A stretch of 64,000 bases of DNA from Algiphilus aromaticivorans DG1253 (GTDB lineage: Bacteria; Pseudomonadota; Gammaproteobacteria; Nevskiales; Nevskiaceae): assembly GCF_000733765.1 (NCBI RefSeq), contig NZ_JPOG01000001.1, positions 1,426,001 to 1,490,000 on the forward strand. The letters run 5' to 3'. Positions 5,675-14,552 of the stretch are shown here, in pieces. Below the pieces are notes generated by a model. The model worked only from the letters and a program-made list of their open reading frames with translations, searched no databases and had not been told where the DNA came from. Each line of letters opens with the position of its first letter. Position 1 is the stretch's first letter. The translations under genes and the position numbers were made by a program.

Positions 5675-5678
<4 letters not shown>
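4647..5678 (+). CDS. hmuU: HmuU haem ABC transporter permease (FecCD family)
   Basis: This 343-residue integral membrane protein has about 10 hydrophobic helices and FecCD/BtuC signatures: LRLPRIALGALVGAALAVSGAILQGLFRNPLADP near residues 55-95 (shown in part: the key GAxLAxSGxxxQxxxRNPLAxP pattern), and GFVGLVAPHIVRL near residue 270, which contacts the ATPase. It forms the transmembrane dimer that imports haem from HmuT. It overlaps hmuT at its start, and its TGA overlaps the ATG of hmuV (ATGA), so the three genes look translationally coupled. Confidence 0.94.
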
Positions 5679-6553
<875 letters not shown>

Positions 6554-6563
6554 ACAAACAATT

Positions 6564-6590
6564 CCCCTCGCCCCCGAAGGGGGAGAGGGG
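6564..6590 (+). terminator. GC-rich hairpin after hmuV
   Basis: Twelve-base arms (6564-6575 and 6579-6590) pair with one mismatch around a GAA loop, 10 bases after the hmuV stop. No T-run follows, so it would be a weak intrinsic terminator or an mRNA-stabilising stem. Stems of C-rich/G-rich type around GAA are common intergenic palindromes in high-GC genomes, so it could also be a dispersed repeat. Confidence 0.5.
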
Positions 6591-6692
6591 CCAGGGGAGA
6601 GGGGGAGCCGAGCAGCCACAACCTCTCACCCTCGCAAAACGCAGCAATTTCACTACGTGACCGCAGCATTCCCCACAGGTAAGCTGCGACCA

Positions 6693-7469
6693 ATGGACTC
6701 GGGGGACTCCACGCTAAAAGCCGCCATCGCGGATCTACGCGAGGCCAAACGCGTGCTGGTCATCACCGGCGCCGGCATCTCCGCAGACTCCGGCCTGCCC
6801 ACCTACCGCGGTGTCGGCGGCCTCTACGACCGCGACCTCACCGAAGAAGGCATCCCCATCGAGGAAGCCCTGTCCGGCGGCATGTTCCAACGGCGCCCGG
6901 ACATCACCTGGAAGTACATCCACCAGATCGAATCCACCGCCCGCGGCGCCGGCTACAACGCAGGCCACAAGGCACTGGCGGAAATGGAGCGCCACTTCGA
7001 GCGCTTCACCATCCTCACCCAGAACGTCGACGGCTTCCACCGCGACGCCGGCAGCACCGACGTTATCGAAATCCACGGCAACGTCCACGAGCTGTACTGC
7101 ACCAGCTGCGGCGAAAAGGAATGGGTGGATGACTTCTCCCAGCTCAACGGCATCCCGCCCAGCTGCCCGGCTTGCGGCAGCCTCGTCCGTCCCCGCGTCG
7201 TGCTATTCGACGAGTTGCTGCCACAGGACGCCGTCGCCCGCCTGGAAGAGGCTGTGGACAGCGAGCCCGACGTCGTCATCAGCATCGGTACCACCGCCGG
7301 CTTCCCGTACATCGCCGCGCCGGTACTGCACGCCGCCCGACGCGCAACGCCAACAATCGAGATCAACCCGGGGAACAGCGAGATATCGGCCTTCGTGCAG
7401 CACCGCTTTCAGGCTAGGGGCATTGAGCTGCTGCCCTACATGGCAGGCCAGTTGGGGGAAGGGGAGTAA
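6693..7469 (+). CDS. SIR2-family NAD-dependent protein deacylase
   Basis: This 258-residue sirtuin removes acyl groups from lysines using NAD+. The NAD-binding motif GAGISADSGLPTYRG lies at about residues 26-40, and TQNVDGFH at 109-116. The catalytic His is H128 in IHGNVHE. The zinc ligands are C136/C139 (CTSC) and C158/C161 (CPAC). I chose the ATG at 6693, which has an AGGTAAG-type ribosome site at 6677-6683. An in-frame GTG at 6657 would add 12 residues. It stands alone between the haem operon and an AT-richer island. Confidence 0.93.
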   Translation: MDSGDSTLKAAIADLREAKRVLVITGAGISADSGLPTYRGVGGLYDRDLTEEGIPIEEALSGGMFQRRPDITWKYIHQIESTARGAGYNAGHKALAEMERHFERFTILTQNVDGFHRDAGSTDVIEIHGNVHELYCTSCGEKEWVDDFSQLNGIPPSCPACGSLVRPRVVLFDELLPQDAVARLEEAVDSEPDVVISIGTTAGFPYIAAPVLHAARRATPTIEINPGNSEISAFVQHRFQARGIELLPYMAGQLGEGE

Positions 7470-7608
7470 TCCCTCGTGCCGTGCGACCCGCAACGAACTC
7501 GTGTAAATGTCGGCTTCCAGCCCATTGCGGGCATGTAGAAATCGTAGCCCGTCCATTTTTTGCTCGCAGTACCACTACTTTTCAACGTCAAAAATCATAG
7601 GGGGAGGT

Positions 7609-8064
7609 ATGTTTAATAACTTTGAAACCACTAAGCAGCAGCTTTCTGAACTCGCGGAGGTGGTAAACAAGTTCAAGTCTGAAGCGGTTCAACTGAAGCT
7701 TCTGGAGCTATTATTCGATGCGAGCCCCAATAACGATGACGACCAGGGAGCCGCTCAATCTGCGCCCAAGCCCAAGAAAAGAGCCAGAAAGAAGCCTGCG
7801 TCCACTAAGAGCGCTGCGAAGCCAGATAAGGGCGCTAAGAGGTCATCCTCATACGGTCCAGCCACAATCCTGACAAAACTCTATAATGAGGGGTTCTTTT
7901 CAAAACCTAAGACAATCACTGAAATTTGTGAACACTCAGGAACGAAGCTAGCGAGAAATATTAAACCAAATGAAATATCCGGGAAGCTTGGCCGGATGGT
8001 GCGTAGCGGGGAGTTGTCGAGAGAAAAGAACTCCGACAACCAGTATGAATACACGAAACCATGA
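7609..8064 (+). CDS. Uncharacterised protein: basic linker plus winged-helix-like C-domain
   Basis: This protein of 151 residues is of no family I can name. The N-terminal 45 residues look helical and partly coiled (FETTKQQLSELAEVVNKFKSEA). A Lys/Ala/Ser-rich basic linker follows (about 55-85), then a compact domain (TILTKLYNEGFFSKPKTITEICEH...NEISGKLGRMVRSGELSREKN) with the spacing of a winged helix-turn-helix. A purine-rich GGGGGAGG at 7600-7607 is only one base from this ATG, which is unusually close. An upstream ATG at 7507 is possible but gives a low-quality N-terminus. It overlaps the next gene by 4 bases (ATGA), so the two are coupled. Its codon use is AT-richer than that of its neighbours, which suggests transfer. 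A defence or regulatory role is only a guess. Confidence 0.7.
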   Translation: MFNNFETTKQQLSELAEVVNKFKSEAVQLKLLELLFDASPNNDDDQGAAQSAPKPKKRARKKPASTKSAAKPDKGAKRSSSYGPATILTKLYNEGFFSKPKTITEICEHSGTKLARNIKPNEISGKLGRMVRSGELSREKNSDNQYEYTKP

Positions 8065-8855
8065 GTGATCTACTTATTTCCGCCCTGAGCGGTATAGATC
8101 AAAACGTCCGCAAGAAGATTGTAGGTTCTTACATCGATCTAAAGCGTAACTTGGCGGAATCGCGGCTCGATGCAGCGGGGCTCAACGCCGGGAAACTTTG
8201 CGAGGCGGTCATCCGACACCTGCAAATTACGGCTTTCGGTTCAAACACGCCATTTGGTAGGAAAATCCCGAATTTCGCAGACGAGTGCCGTAAGATAATA
8301 TGCGCGCCAAGTGGCGCAAACATTACTGAATCCGAAAAGGCAATATTGCCCCGTGCCTTGGTTTTTCTCTACACTATGCGTAACAAACGAGGTATCGGTC
8401 ATATTGGCGGTGATGTAGATCCAAATGCAATTGATGGGGCGCTGATTGGGCGAGTGTCAGATTGGATCGTTTGCGAACTTATTCGCGTTAATCACAACCT
8501 TTCGCTTGAAGAAGCTCAGGACCTAGTTGACGGATTGGCAATCAGACAGTTGCCCGATGTCTGGGAGGTGGCCGGGAAGAAAAGGGTGCTTCGCGATGGC
8601 ATGTCAGCCAAGGACCAGCTGCTGTTGCTTCTCTATTCTTGTCAGGATCAAACCGTGTTGGTCGAAGACTTGGTGAGCTGGGTGGAATATTCGAATCCGG
8701 CTGTTCTGCGTTCTCGAATTATCGGTAATCTTCATAAGGGTCGTTTTGTCGAGTGGGACCGCGACTCCGAATTCATAGTGCTATCGCCCAAGGGGGCGAA
8801 GTACGTGGAAGAAAATTTGTTGGGTGCTGAACAAGTCGCTTCACGGGGCGTTTGA
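8061..8855 (+). CDS. Uncharacterised HEPN-like protein with C-terminal winged-helix-like region
   Basis: This 264-residue protein has an all-helical N-half. It contains R107-N-K-R-G-I-G-H114, an R-polar-x-H spacing (R then six residues then H) like the active site of HEPN ribonucleases. The block TPFGRKIPNFADECRKI precedes it and EEAQDLVDGLAIRQLPDVWEVAGKKRVL follows. The last 80 residues (KDQLLLLLYSC...VLSPKGAKYVEE) look like a DNA-binding winged helix. The start codon overlaps the stop of the upstream gene. HEPN proteins often act in toxin-antitoxin or phage-defence systems. The match here rests on the motif and helical pattern only, not on a search. The low GC and nearby insertion sequences fit acquired DNA. 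Confidence 0.75.
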   Translation: MSDLLISALSGIDQNVRKKIVGSYIDLKRNLAESRLDAAGLNAGKLCEAVIRHLQITAFGSNTPFGRKIPNFADECRKIICAPSGANITESEKAILPRALVFLYTMRNKRGIGHIGGDVDPNAIDGALIGRVSDWIVCELIRVNHNLSLEEAQDLVDGLAIRQLPDVWEVAGKKRVLRDGMSAKDQLLLLLYSCQDQTVLVEDLVSWVEYSNPAVLRSRIIGNLHKGRFVEWDRDSEFIVLSPKGAKYVEENLLGAEQVASRGV

Positions 8856-9126
8856 TCCGCCAAGGGCGGTAGAGCAGTAAAAGGCTCAGAGCCCGATTTC
8901 CCTCGAGTTACCCCTATGCGGCAATGGCGAATAAGTGTTCTGCAGGTTATTGATAATAGGTCTCTGGTTATAGCGCCGTTTACAGTAATGACCAATGTTG
9001 TTTACCGTGCATCGTTGACGATAATATGCTATTAATTGACGAAGGCCAGCGTGATTGAATTGTGTCGCATGGCGCGGAGTCGCTAATAAGGTTCGTAAAG
9101 ACAGCCAACGTGAAAGGAGAAATCTG

Positions 9127-9330
9127 ATGGGCGTAAAATTTGGGGAAATTGACTCTAGCCAAATACTTGATAATGAGTTCCGCATATTAGTTCTCGAGCG
9201 GGTTGTTGATCACTTACTCACATCTAACCCTACTGGCGCATTAGGGTTGGACATTCAAAATATAAGAAAAGATGTGCTGGAGGTTATGAAGAAGAAATAC
9301 CCCAACTCGGGAATTGAGTTGAAGGGGTGA
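9127..9330 (+). CDS. Small hypothetical protein (67 aa)
   Basis: I do not recognise this small soluble protein, whose sequence looks helical (DNEFRILVLERVVDHLLTSN...IRKDVLEVMKKKYPN). The ATG at 9127 has a strong AAAGGAGA ribosome site at 9113-9120, which supports a real gene. An upstream in-frame ATG at 9055 would give a poor N-terminus. The 271 bases between the HEPN-like gene and this one show no other coding signal and are AT-rich, so they may hold its promoter. The stop lies 17 bases before an IS30-family element, so the gene seems intact rather than broken by the insertion. Confidence 0.6.
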   Translation: MGVKFGEIDSSQILDNEFRILVLERVVDHLLTSNPTGALGLDIQNIRKDVLEVMKKKYPNSGIELKG

Positions 9331-9347
9331 AGTCATGTCAGGCTGGT

Positions 9348-10429
9348 CTCAAGAATCAAGTGCAACGTTATCGTGAAAGTTAGCCATTTCCTGGGCCATG
9401 ACTTCCTCCGGCGTTTGCCAGTCCAGGGTTTTGCGTGGTCGCCCGTTGAGCAGGCGCGCGACGTCGTTGAGCTGGGTCTGGCTGACCGTCGACAGGTCCG
9501 TGCCCTTAGGCAGGAATTGGCGCAGCAACCCGTTGGTGTTCTCGTTGCTGCCGCGCTGCCACGGGGCATACGGGTCGGCGAACCAGATATCGAGCTTCAA
9601 GCGCTGGGCGAGCTCCTCATGACGCGCCATCTCGCTGCCCCGGTCGTAAGTGAAGCTCTCGCGCATGAAGGCAGGCACCTTCTTCATCTGGCGCGTGAAG
9701 CTTTCGAGCGCCGCGTCGGCGCTGCAGTCCGCCATCTTGCAGAGAATGACGAAGCGCGTTTTGCGCTCAACGACGGTGCCCACGGCCGAGCGGTTGTAGG
9801 CGCCCTTTATAAAGTCGCCTTCCCAGTGACCCGGCAGCTTGCGCTGCGTCACATCTTCGGGACGATGAATGATCCTCAGATCCTCGGGCACCACCATGCC
9901 ACCCTTGCCGGCGGCGGTACGCCGTTTCTGGCCGCGCTGCGGCTTGTGCTGGCGCAGGGCTTCCACCATGGCTTTCTTCAGCGCTCCCTTGGGGTGCGCG
10001 TAGATCGCCGCGTAGATGGTCTCGTGGCTGATCTTCCAATCCGGATCGTCGGGAAACATGCGTTCCAGTCTGCAGGCGATCTGCTCTGGCGACCAGGCAA
10101 AGTAGATCAGGCGGTCGTGCACGTATTGCCAGAGCATCGAGCCGGACTGAAGCTTGCAACGCCGTCCGCACCGTTGTCGTCGCTGCCGGTAGGCCGCACT
10201 CGCTGCCGTAGCGTTGTAGACCTTGCCAGCCATCGCATTACGCCGACGTTCCCGCGAGATCGTCGACGGCGAGCGCCCAAGTCGTCGGCTGATGTCCCTG
10301 GTCGTCACGCCTTCATCAGCCAACAACATGATCGCCGCGCGTTCCTCCGCCGAGAGATGGCGGTAGCTTCTTGTCGTCATCGCAACACCGTATCTGCATC
10401 AGAATGGGGTGTTGCACTTGGTTCTTGAG
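9348..10429 (-). mobile_element. IS30-family insertion sequence, 1082 bp
   Basis: The ends are 19-bp inverted repeats at 9348-9366 and 10411-10429 with one mismatch (CTCAAGAATCAAGTGCAAC versus CTCAAGAACCAAGTGCAAC read inward). A single IS30-type transposase on the minus strand fills the element, and its stop codon lies inside the left repeat. The bases just outside (GGT on the left, TCT on the right) do not match, so I see no target duplication. The length is normal for IS30 elements. It is only a few bases from an IS5-family element on its right. Confidence 0.9.
9349..10380 (-). CDS. IS30-family transposase
   Basis: This 343-residue DDE transposase has an N-terminal helix-turn-helix (LSAEERAAIMLLADEGVTTRDISRRLGRSPSTISRE, key residues within 10-45). 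Its catalytic core has the first Asp in HWEGDFIKG, the second in TYDRGSEMARH, and the Glu in NENTNGLLRQFLPKG. This is the standard IS30 layout. Length and motifs look complete, so it is probably active. Confidence 0.95.
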   Translation of the reverse strand: MTTRSYRHLSAEERAAIMLLADEGVTTRDISRRLGRSPSTISRERRRNAMAGKVYNATAASAAYRQRRQRCGRRCKLQSGSMLWQYVHDRLIYFAWSPEQIACRLERMFPDDPDWKISHETIYAAIYAHPKGALKKAMVEALRQHKPQRGQKRRTAAGKGGMVVPEDLRIIHRPEDVTQRKLPGHWEGDFIKGAYNRSAVGTVVERKTRFVILCKMADCSADAALESFTRQMKKVPAFMRESFTYDRGSEMARHEELAQRLKLDIWFADPYAPWQRGSNENTNGLLRQFLPKGTDLSTVSQTQLNDVARLLNGRPRKTLDWQTPEEVMAQEMANFHDNVALDS

Positions 10430-10434
10430 TCTAA

Positions 10435-11596
10435 GGAATGTCTGATCAAAGTCGGATGAGTGACCGCGAAGACATTGCAGGCTGCACACCGGGTGAAATG
10501 AAGGCTGTTTCGGGGGCTTCAGCCTCTGCAGAAGCCCGATTTCGTTGTCATTGGACGCACCTATCCTGCCGCCAGCAGCTGTCTTCGGGCCGCCACGAGG
10601 TTGGCCATGGCAAACAGGCTGTGCAGGTGCGCGGTGTTCTTGGTCAGGCCGCGATAGCGGACCTTGGTGTAGCCGAACTGGCATTTGACAATCCGAAACG
10701 GATGCTCGACCCGGGCTCTCAGAGACGCCAGACGTCGGTTGGCGGCGCGCTGCCATTCCAGCAGCGCCTTGCCGGCACTGCGCACGTAAGGCGTGACGAT
10801 GCGCGGTCCACTATCGGGCGCCGGGGCATCCAGGCTGCGGCCCGTGCGTCGATAGCCGGCATCGCCCAGCACGATGCGTTCTTCGCCGTGCAGCAGGGCT
10901 TCGGTCTGGGTGATGTCGGCGACTTTGGCCGTTGTGCCGATAACGGTGTGCACGAGGCCACTGTGGGCATCGGCGCCGATATGCGCCTTGCAGCCGAAGT
11001 ACCACTGGTTGCCCTTGCGCGTCTGACTCATGTCGGGATCCCGCGTACCGCTCTGGTTCTTCGTCGAGCTGGGCGCGTGGATCAGCGTGGCGTCCACCAG
11101 CGTGCCTTCGCGCAGCATCAGGCCCCGCTCGCGCAGGTGGGCATTGACCTCGGCAAAGATCTGCTCGGCCAGCCCGTGCCGCTCCAACAGCCGCCGGAAC
11201 TGCAGGATCGTGCTCTCGTCAGGCACCGCCTCATCCGTCAGCGTGATGCCGGCAAAGCGGCGCATGGCATCGGAGTCGTAAAGCGCCTCTTCGGCGCCTG
11301 GATCCGACAGCCCGTAGAACTGCTGCAGGCAGTAGATGCGCAGCTTGGTGGCCAGCGACAGCGGCCGGCGCCCCGGCTTGCCCGCCTTGGGCTTCGGGTA
11401 GTGCGGCGCAATCAACGCCTCCAGGCGCGACCACGGAATAACCGCATCCATCTCCGCCAGAAACTTCTCGCGGCGCGTCACCTTCTTCTTGTGCGCCTGC
11501 TCAAGATCCGCGAACGTCCGCTGCTTCATCGACTGGCTCACCATCGTCTCCGTGCCCCGGCATCATCCCAGATCGGGGCGATTGATCAGAGTTTCC
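10435..11596 (-). mobile_element. IS5-family insertion sequence, 1162 bp, with CTAA target duplication
   Basis: Terminal inverted repeats are GGAATGTCTGATCAA (10435-10449) and, read inward from the right, GGAAACTCTGATCAA (11582-11596), with two mismatches. The 4-bp direct repeat CTAA flanks the element at 10431-10434 and 11597-11600, which fits the YTAR target preference of IS5-like elements. One transposase gene on the minus strand fills it. It landed one base from the right end of the IS30 element (10429), so it probably arrived after, or next to, that insertion. Confidence 0.93.
10561..11544 (-). CDS. IS5-family transposase
   Basis: This 327-residue DDE transposase has the IS5 N-terminal domain (TFADLEQAHKKKVTRREKFLAEMD; RRPLSLATKLRIYCLQQFYGLSDPGAEEALYDS in part). 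Asp occurs in GTLVDATLIHAP and in VLGDAGYRRT, and Glu in RARVEHPFRIVKCQFG. Length and motifs are complete. An alternative start is the internal Met six codons in (MKQRTF). Confidence 0.95.
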   Translation of the reverse strand: MVSQSMKQRTFADLEQAHKKKVTRREKFLAEMDAVIPWSRLEALIAPHYPKPKAGKPGRRPLSLATKLRIYCLQQFYGLSDPGAEEALYDSDAMRRFAGITLTDEAVPDESTILQFRRLLERHGLAEQIFAEVNAHLRERGLMLREGTLVDATLIHAPSSTKNQSGTRDPDMSQTRKGNQWYFGCKAHIGADAHSGLVHTVIGTTAKVADITQTEALLHGEERIVLGDAGYRRTGRSLDAPAPDSGPRIVTPYVRSAGKALLEWQRAANRRLASLRARVEHPFRIVKCQFGYTKVRYRGLTKNTAHLHSLFAMANLVAARRQLLAAG

Positions 11597-11669
11597 CTAA
11601 GCAGGACCGCTTAGCTCAGCCAGAGATTTCATTACAACAAGCGTAGTTCCAAAGACACAGGTATATCAC

Positions 11670-11966
11670 TTGGTCACGGAGGAAACATTAAGCGCCATTA
11701 AAGAAAAAAGTTTGGTGGCAGACTTCTTTATGCTCTTGGCGAGCCTGCTATTCGGCGCATTCTTTTCAGCTTTAATATCGCTTCGGGCGTCGACAGGTCT
11801 GCCTCAACAGACGATTGCCGCTCTTGAAATTTACAAGTGGGTATTCTTAGGTTTTGGCGTGATTTTCCTTGTTCTCACGCTCATCGCCATCGGAAAGGGG
11901 AATGGGATTATAAAGAAAATACAACGATCAGAGGCGATGTTCAGTGAAAGTTCGAGCGAGGGTTAG
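11670..11966 (+). CDS. Small two-TM hypothetical membrane protein
   Basis: I do not recognise this 98-residue protein. It has two hydrophobic helices: FFMLLASLLFGAFFSALISL at about residues 19-38, and VFLGFGVIFLVLTLIAIG at about 57-74. A charged C-terminus follows. The start is doubtful. The frame opens at 11601 just right of the IS5 element, and the best available start is TTG at 11670 with no clear ribosome site. The stop before it (TAA at 11598) lies in the target duplication, so it existed before the insertion and the gene was not cut. Codon use is AT-rich like the rest of the island. Confidence 0.45.
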   Translation: MVTEETLSAIKEKSLVADFFMLLASLLFGAFFSALISLRASTGLPQQTIAALEIYKWVFLGFGVIFLVLTLIAIGKGNGIIKKIQRSEAMFSESSSEG

Positions 11967-12015
11967 TAGGTTGTTTTCATCGTGCCTCTGAAAATATCAG
12001 TGATCCTGGTACTGA

Positions 12016-12035
12016 ATGACCGCTTCTGGCACATA
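12016..12035 (+). repeat. Dispersed 20-bp repeat, copy 1
   Basis: ATGACCGCTTCTGGCACATA at this site matches 12593-12612 at 18 of 20 positions. It lies in the 245-base gap between the two small membrane-protein genes, where I see no other coding signal. Its function is unknown. The core resembles remnants of short palindromic repeats seen between genes in many gammaproteobacteria, but I cannot confirm that here. Confidence 0.5.
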
Positions 12036-12211
12036 GCGAAGCCAATACGGTGGTTTGTGCGCTACTATAGAAAGAGGTGCGCTGCGTAAACTTGGGTAAT
12101 GGGCTTAGGGAGGGTCGAGAGAATAAATGCTGAGGTCACATACTCGTTCCGCGTGTTGCGCGATTTTAGGCTTCTCACTTACTGTAGTTGAACTAGTGTC
12201 GAGAGGTGAAT

Positions 12212-12544
12212 GTGGCCAACGTTATTGGTTTTATGTTTGAGCAAGTGGTGTCGAGTCTAGGTGCTTCCGCGATACCGCTTGCGATATACTACGCGTTCGT
12301 TAGGCGGAAGAGGTCAATATGGCGGAGCGCTTGGGTGAGGTATGGGGGCGCGGCGTCAATAATTTTCATAGGTAGTATATATTCCTATTCAAGTCACTCA
12401 AGCCCCCATTCTGTGGCATACGTTTTATTGTTCGCTGGCTCATGCATACTCACGTCAATAATATATGTGTTATCCACAGCATATTATAAAGTATTACGCA
12501 AAGACAGATACAAAATAGCTGGTCCCCCAGTGAATAAAAGCTGA
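12212..12544 (+). CDS. Small multi-TM hypothetical membrane protein
   Basis: I do not recognise this protein of about 110 residues. It has hydrophobic segments near residues 10-28 (SSLGASAIPLAIYYAFV), 47-58 (AASIIFIGSIYSY) and 68-92 (VAYVLLFAGSCILTSIIYVLST), separated by Arg/Lys-rich loops. I chose GTG 12212 because GAGAGG at 12201-12206 lies 5 bases upstream. A GTG at 12206 is also in frame. Codon use is AT-rich, and the gene seems to belong to the acquired island. Confidence 0.5.
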   Translation: MANVIGFMFEQVVSSLGASAIPLAIYYAFVRRKRSIWRSAWVRYGGAASIIFIGSIYSYSSHSSPHSVAYVLLFAGSCILTSIIYVLSTAYYKVLRKDRYKIAGPPVNKS

Positions 12545-12592
12545 TCGTAGCGGTAGTGAGTAATAAGAGGGGGCAAATTACGATTTGATGAG

Positions 12593-12612
12593 ATGACGGC
12601 TTCTGGCACGTA
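12593..12612 (+). repeat. Dispersed 20-bp repeat, copy 2
   Basis: ATGACGGCTTCTGGCACGTA is the partner of 12016-12035 (18 of 20 identical). It lies in the gap before the acyl-CoA dehydrogenase gene, at the right edge of the AT-richer island. Both copies sit just after a small membrane-protein gene, in the same orientation. Confidence 0.5.
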
Positions 12613-12734
12613 TCCGCCGCCTAGCGTGCAGGCCGAGCGTCTAACGGCGCTCCATCACGGGGCTGTGCTGGCTGGGTGTTGACCGCGCGGTAAGGCATAA
12701 TCGCGCCCCTCCCAAGGTCAAGCGAGAACCCACC

Positions 12735-14552
<1,818 letters not shown>

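Follow-up and report, generated by a model that had tools for sequence, protein, structure and literature searches.

What kind of protein pair is encoded by two small overlapping genes of low GC content, here called A and B, which lie between positions 7609 and 8855 of a 64,000-nucleotide stretch of the Algiphilus aromaticivorans DG1253 genome (the window in the following)? A sequence-only reading of this DNA had noticed a HEPN-like motif in the second gene and proposed an acquired defence or toxin-antitoxin unit. Below, we treat in turn the genomic setting, the identity of B, the nature of its partner, the distribution of the pair and the function it may have.

Genomic setting of the gene pair

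Gene A (7609..8064, forward strand) is an open reading frame encoding 151 amino acids. Gene B (8061..8855, forward strand) is open from the ATG at 8061 and encodes 264 amino acids. The stop codon of A and the start codon of B share the four bases ATGA (8061..8064, forward strand), just as had been read from the sequence, and translation of the two genes may be coupled through this overlap. The window (8045-8068) also has an ATG at the position used by several relatives as the start of B, but it is out of frame, and its reading stops after seven codons. The low GC content of the pair is confirmed: it is 0.472 in A and 0.501 in B (47% and 50%), versus 0.653 (65%) in the window. GC3 values are 0.54 for A and 0.52 for B, versus 0.84 for the upstream sirtuin gene (PF02146) and 0.91 for a downstream gene, which we take to encode an acyl-CoA dehydrogenase.

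Between B and the dehydrogenase gene follow, in this order, a 67-codon orphan, a transposase gene with Pfam matches to rve and HTH_38 (9349-10380), a transposase gene with matches to DDE_Tnp_1 and DUF772 (10561-11544), and two small orphans. The transposases are presumably IS30-like and IS5-like. For the three small neighbour genes tested, no above-cut-off Pfam match was obtained; nearby insertion sequences and orphan neighbours, as previously claimed, are thus present. The two small orphans at 11670-12544, which lie within the variable stretch described next, appear hydrophobic by eye.

In a genome of the same genus (G398), DNA similarity stops at window position 7395, inside the sirtuin gene, and restarts at 12723, before the dehydrogenase gene. 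Because similarity breaks off between both genes, the stretch of about 5.2 kb from sirtuin to dehydrogenase looks variable within the genus. The search for a clean empty site found none: the two flanks lie in G398 on separate contigs and have other genes next to them, which makes the site variable, not demonstrably empty. In four further relatives the dehydrogenase gene is present and the preceding stretch contains no sirtuin gene. On the other side (5675-7469), the sirtuin gene of the window directly follows a gene which we assume to encode an ABC-transporter ATPase; in G398, the two are separated by about 2.8 kb of different sequence. Acquisition of A and B, as proposed in the sequence-only reading, is probable, given their low GC content and the lack, in this one genome of the genus, of a matching stretch next to either flank.

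Gene B encodes a divergent HEPN protein

Judged by its sequence, B is a divergent HEPN protein. Rx4-6H and Ex3[KR] are motifs of the HEPN superfamily; the former sits in the active site, the latter occurs in many HEPN families (PMC3710099). In B, the string RNKRGIGH (residues 107-114; 8379..8402, forward strand) corresponds to an Rx6H motif and forms the predicted RNase site, and E48-x3-R52 (8202..8216, forward strand) corresponds to the second motif. Among 17 B sequences, R110 and H114 are kept in all and R107 in 15, which argues against a chance string and for the HEPN site suspected earlier. E48 is likewise kept in 17 of 17, and position 52 is occupied by R or K in 15 sequences. The column after the motif arginine, which in HEPN proteins is polar and mostly N, D or H, contains N in 11, S in 5 and G in 1 of the 17 proteins, and N in the window's B. 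The residues H114, R110, E48, Y104, D125, W135, E139 and R142 are invariant in these 17 members among the 25 alignment columns shown. R107 is missing in the B proteins of loci L020 and L063, which have ASNRG-x-RH instead of RNKRGIGH.

A comparison of profiles with hhalign led to the same family. The HEPN domains of the 17 B proteins were aligned with 20 segments of Abi_C (PF14355, abortive infection C-terminus), one of which (L080) is under the Pfam cut-off and several of which are partial; the match had a probability of 81%, an E-value of 1.2e-5 and a score of 36.9 over 110 columns. The motifs are in register, R107, H114 and E48 of B falling on matching Abi_C residues. None of 100 column shuffles, a lenient control, scored as high (mean 11.1, maximum 18.7), and the reversed profile gave 15.8. 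A five-member Abi_C profile performed much less well, with E-values of 0.0074 for 14 B sequences and 0.018 for the nine core ones (controls 0.4 and 0.36, respectively).

B of the window had no match up to E 10 in Pfam, PADLOC, NCBIfam or PHROGs, and the nine core B proteins gave single weak Pfam matches, none of them to a HEPN model. Distant members produced sub-cut-off Pfam matches to Abi_C (E 0.04), HEPN (0.22), MarR (0.009) and also HTH_27, with unrelated matches at similar E-values. The Abi_C cut-off of 24 bits was reached neither by the window's B, which had no match, nor by the best relative, P0020, with 14.5 bits. A PDB sequence search with the B profile had a best E-value of 1.3 and returned unrelated molecules.

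The AlphaFold model of B, computed from nine sequences (mean pLDDT 78), consists of a helical part (residues 1 to about 160), a beta-hairpin (167-176) and a MarR-like winged helix (183-253); the loop of the motif (111-117) has pLDDT values under 50. With Foldseek, the HEPN structures 2hsb, 3o10 and 4nqf were found with probabilities of 0.98, 0.95 and 0.60; the E-values for these and for TT1696 (1ufb), presumably a HEPN protein as well, were between 0.26 and 1.2, with the HEPN rows at 0.40-1.2. The top row was a COP9 signalosome subunit with E 0.17, and nothing scored below 0.17. VIA superimposed 2hsb with Z 10.5 (4.0 Å, 122 residues) and, as high, the non-HEPN helical bundle of GIT1 with Z 10.8; for the C-terminus of B it gave MarR proteins with Z 10-11. 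The helical domain and the following winged-helix-like region that had been read from the sequence are both present in the AlphaFold model. Note that the fold alone does not decide the HEPN identity, because the GIT1 bundle scores Z 10.8; it is the sequence that does. The identity is supported by the conservation of Rx6H and Ex3[KR], the Abi_C profile match and the presence of HEPN structures among the fold matches. Two observations had been named beforehand as speaking against it, namely a structure prediction lacking a HEPN fold and loss of the Arg and His residues in homologues; HEPN structures are among the best matches, next to unrelated bundles of comparable score, the residues are kept (R107 in 15 and H114 in 17 of 17), and the HEPN reading is not refuted.

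Gene A encodes a predicted winged-helix protein

The AlphaFold model of A comprises a long helix (residues 3-37, which include FKSEAVQL), a disordered linker rich in Lys and Arg (about 38-82) and a C-terminal winged helix (84-149; pLDDT 84-96 by blocks of ten), and it matches the earlier proposal of a helical start and basic linker joined to a winged-helix-like domain. The closest structural neighbours are the DNA-binding domains of Fur, Zur, PadR and MarR, with Foldseek E-values of 0.007 and above. A is therefore predicted to be a winged-helix protein of the DNA-binding type, and the combination of basic linker and winged helix suggests that it binds DNA, whether at the operator of the module itself or in an invader. 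Searches of Pfam, PADLOC, NCBIfam and PHROGs gave weak scattered matches only, with no PADLOC model matching A up to E 10. The nine core A proteins had single weak Pfam matches, none to HEPN, and a PDB sequence search with the A profile returned unrelated molecules (best E 0.17).

Distribution of B and pairing with A

One pattern-seeded scan of a genome collection, which finds close relatives only, detected eight relatives of B with 49-62% identity. They come from a Desulfobacteraceae bacterium, two Acidobacteria, an Actinomycetota, an Alphaproteobacteria, a Nitrospinota, a Lacunisphaera and a Zixibacteria record; by title, these records are assigned to seven bacterial phyla, and since most of them (seven of the eight) derive from metagenome assemblies, individual records may be assigned to the wrong phylum. 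Distant relatives were found in the genomes G419, G194, G631, G701, G753, G790 and G1058, and one more on plasmid PL131 of Natronomonas pharaonis (31% identity over 54% of the query P0020). This was the one, distant plasmid match; the plasmid search with P0002 gave nothing. No relatives were found in the viral contigs, by protein or profile searches, or in the phage records searched. B occurs in 2 of 398 genomes of the phylum, 2 of 100 relatives, 3 of 274 genomes of the class and 4 of 385 genomes of another class, each count including G000, the window's own genome, or G194. The distribution of the pair is thus patchy, with several bacterial phyla and one archaeon. A housekeeping regulator was considered and rejected, as B is present in only 2 of the 100 relatives, one being the window's own genome.

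A relative of A is located directly upstream of B in all eight named loci, which bears out the conserved two-gene unit. The identity matrices of nine A-B pairs correlate with r 0.84, a value matched or exceeded in 6 of 5000 permutations. Where B has an upstream partner (16 loci, window included; start codons as chosen), the two genes overlap in 14; in L063, for example, the ATG of B at 6257 gives an overlap of 4 with the upstream gene. The exceptions are L064 with a gap of 9 bases and L065 with a gap of 248 bases.

Small upstream genes also precede B in seven of eight distant relatives: there are three in L020 and L063, two in L064 and L065, and one in L013, L014 and L019. In L015, the candidate partner, judged by eye, is a short ORF downstream of B. 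The partners in L013, L014, L019, L063 and L065 were assigned by position and size and by an N-terminal or winged-helix-like look by eye. The A profile detects 13 of the 24 A-type or candidate partners (the nine core proteins, L062, L064b, L020a and L020b) and, among 117 control neighbours, nothing; the 11 that escape it are L013, L014, L015, L019, L020c, L063a-c, L064a, L065a and L065b. Some of these resemble other partners outside the A-type domain or without having one: L065b is like L064b, L065a like L064a, and L063c like L020c. L063a has a weak match to MarR_2 (E 0.005). The third of the three small genes before B is common to L020 (554-2469) and L063 (4979-7039), with a phmmer E-value of 5e-24. 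The A-type winged helix follows varying N-termini: a long helix in the core proteins, a strand-strand-helix arrangement, as judged by eye, in L020, and a second domain in L064.

Of 258 genomes, 3 yielded an A-type gene: G000, G701, where it is beside B, and G706. The A-type gene of G706 (locus L062) has a partner other than B: it shares 20 bases with a DUF4145 gene (26.2 bits, cut-off 23.1), whose product has no winged-helix match. DUF4145 is listed as a HEPN family (PMC3710099), and because of this overlap, A-type partners pair with two different HEPN families. Next to the DUF4145 gene of L062 is a gene for an 8xMP membrane protein (E 1.2e-24), so that A-type, DUF4145 and 8xMP genes stand in a row (5928-8570); upstream, there is a weak sub-cut-off match to a Tse2-like ADP-ribosyltransferase. 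By its appearance, this could be a related module or else a small defence island.

Defence context

The proposed co-occurrence with defence islands was seen in one clear case, L001, and in no further clear case among the loci examined. There (6509-13510), PDC-S19, a type I methyltransferase and a specificity subunit come after the relatives of A and B, and the protein before the pair has a weak match to HEPN_Swt1 (E 0.081). The neighbour scan comprised 117 of 160 ORFs, without the A and B genes themselves, ORFs longer than 1200 amino acids and certain others. Among the best 25 of 126 PADLOC families for these neighbours, the best E-values trace to L001 genes. No family among the best 25 of 141 Pfam families matches more than two of the 117 neighbours, and in this sense no shared target gene was seen. 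One gene of L064 has a weak match to a desaturase model (E 1.4e-6). With no PADLOC match, no relative in the viral contigs and phage records searched and a single clear defence island, the role as a defence or toxin-antitoxin unit was not established by these data.

Possible function of the pair

On balance, the analysis leans slightly towards B being a HEPN RNase effector that is held by A, a winged-helix regulator, within an abortive-infection or toxin-antitoxin module. HEPN domains are typically dimeric ribonucleases (PMC13092281), and as these have the Rx4-6H motif in the active site, B would be expected to cut RNA once freed from A. While the genes, their overlap, the HEPN homology, the predicted winged-helix folds, the conserved pairing and the patchy occurrence follow from the results above, dimerisation, RNase activity and toxicity of B, inhibition by A, DNA binding, the trigger and a role in defence are inferred. 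On this view, the pair would be a mobile unit of two genes serving in stress or defence, in which A, the regulatory subunit, would be made first and translated in step with B. Two HEPN domains of B would pair, R107 and H114 forming the RNA-cutting site, and the N-terminal helix of A would keep B inactive. The winged helix of A might bind DNA, be it the module's own operator or invading DNA, whereas B's own winged helix might dock B on DNA or on A. Once A was displaced or degraded, or an invader engaged it, B would cut cellular RNA, growth would stop and the invader would be blocked.

A less likely alternative makes A an activating sensor instead of an antitoxin: its winged helix would recognise invader DNA or a damage structure and switch on B, which alone would be non-toxic. 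The recurrence of the A-type winged helix behind different N-terminal parts is what one would expect of an adaptor, and the two or three small upstream genes of L020, L063, L064 and L065 suggest a sensor array; type II toxin-antitoxin pairs, however, are described with this very order, partner first (PMC3710099).

We regard it as rather improbable that B is a transcriptional co-regulator and not an RNase, its HEPN-like domain pairing only with itself or binding a ligand, as may hold for certain HEPN proteins like part of the MtlR family, while both winged helices regulate a host gene. Winged helices do occur in the predicted folds of both proteins, R107 is missing in 2 of 17 sequences, and some HEPN families, including a subset of MtlR, have lost the motif (PMC3710099). 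Such a role, however, is difficult to combine with H114, R110 and E48 being kept in 17 of 17 proteins, with the lack of a shared target gene among the best 25 of 141 Pfam families for the 117 neighbours, and with an A-type partner being joined to another HEPN family, DUF4145, in L062.

That the HEPN likeness is a mere coincidence of helical bundles, the genes having an unrelated mobile-element function, is very improbable, because the middling structural scores and the equally good match of a non-HEPN bundle are outweighed by a 110-column profile match, reached by 0 of 100 shuffles, and by the agreement of motif register and Ex3[KR].

Relation to known systems

Abi_C is the closest profile found and shares with B the Rx6H motif of the pattern RN..G..H as well as Ex3[KR] over 110 columns; what distinguishes B is that its HEPN domain is N-terminal, that a winged helix follows and that there is a separate partner gene. 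The HEPN-MNT pairs (HepT/MntA) resemble A and B in having two genes, with the partner first and HEPN second (PMC3710099). The partner in our case, in contrast, is a predicted winged-helix protein: A has no Pfam match to a nucleotidyltransferase, its predicted fold being a helix plus a winged helix, and this assignment was therefore rejected. CnuE of the CoCoNuT systems, which belongs to McrBC-type operons, also combines a winged helix and HEPN in one protein, but there the winged helix comes before HEPN, whereas in B it comes after (PMC11090510). Due to this opposite domain order, and with no McrB-type GTPase gene beside the pair of the window, a CoCoNuT part was rejected too. With type II toxin-antitoxin systems, the pair shares the layout of a small two-gene operon with the partner upstream; DNA binding by A is a prediction from its modelled fold. 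In L062, an A-type gene likewise overlaps a HEPN gene (DUF4145), although that HEPN family is a different one.

No earlier description of the A-B pair was found in full-text searches of open-licence papers or in passages of PMC3710099, PMC13092281, PMC10853773, PMC12839542, PMC11090510 and PMC10799925, where CnuE and the HEPN-MNT pairs come nearest; a report elsewhere is possible. A and B probably constitute an undescribed self-defence or toxin-antitoxin module. As a tentative generalisation, which we rate as somewhat short of probable, HEPN RNase effectors belonging to more than one family may be under the control of small, modular winged-helix adaptors, which are encoded by one to three genes and have exchangeable N-terminal parts; immune modules of this class would occur in many bacterial phyla and in haloarchaea and be missing from the family libraries searched.

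Across contigs assigned to seven phyla, B retains 49-62% identity, yet it is unnamed in Pfam, NCBIfam, PADLOC and PHROGs. Should B prove to be an RNase restrained by A, it would add to the HEPN families one whose partner is of a new kind, and the upstream genes, being modular, would then provide a natural series for studying how a HEPN enzyme is told of an invader.
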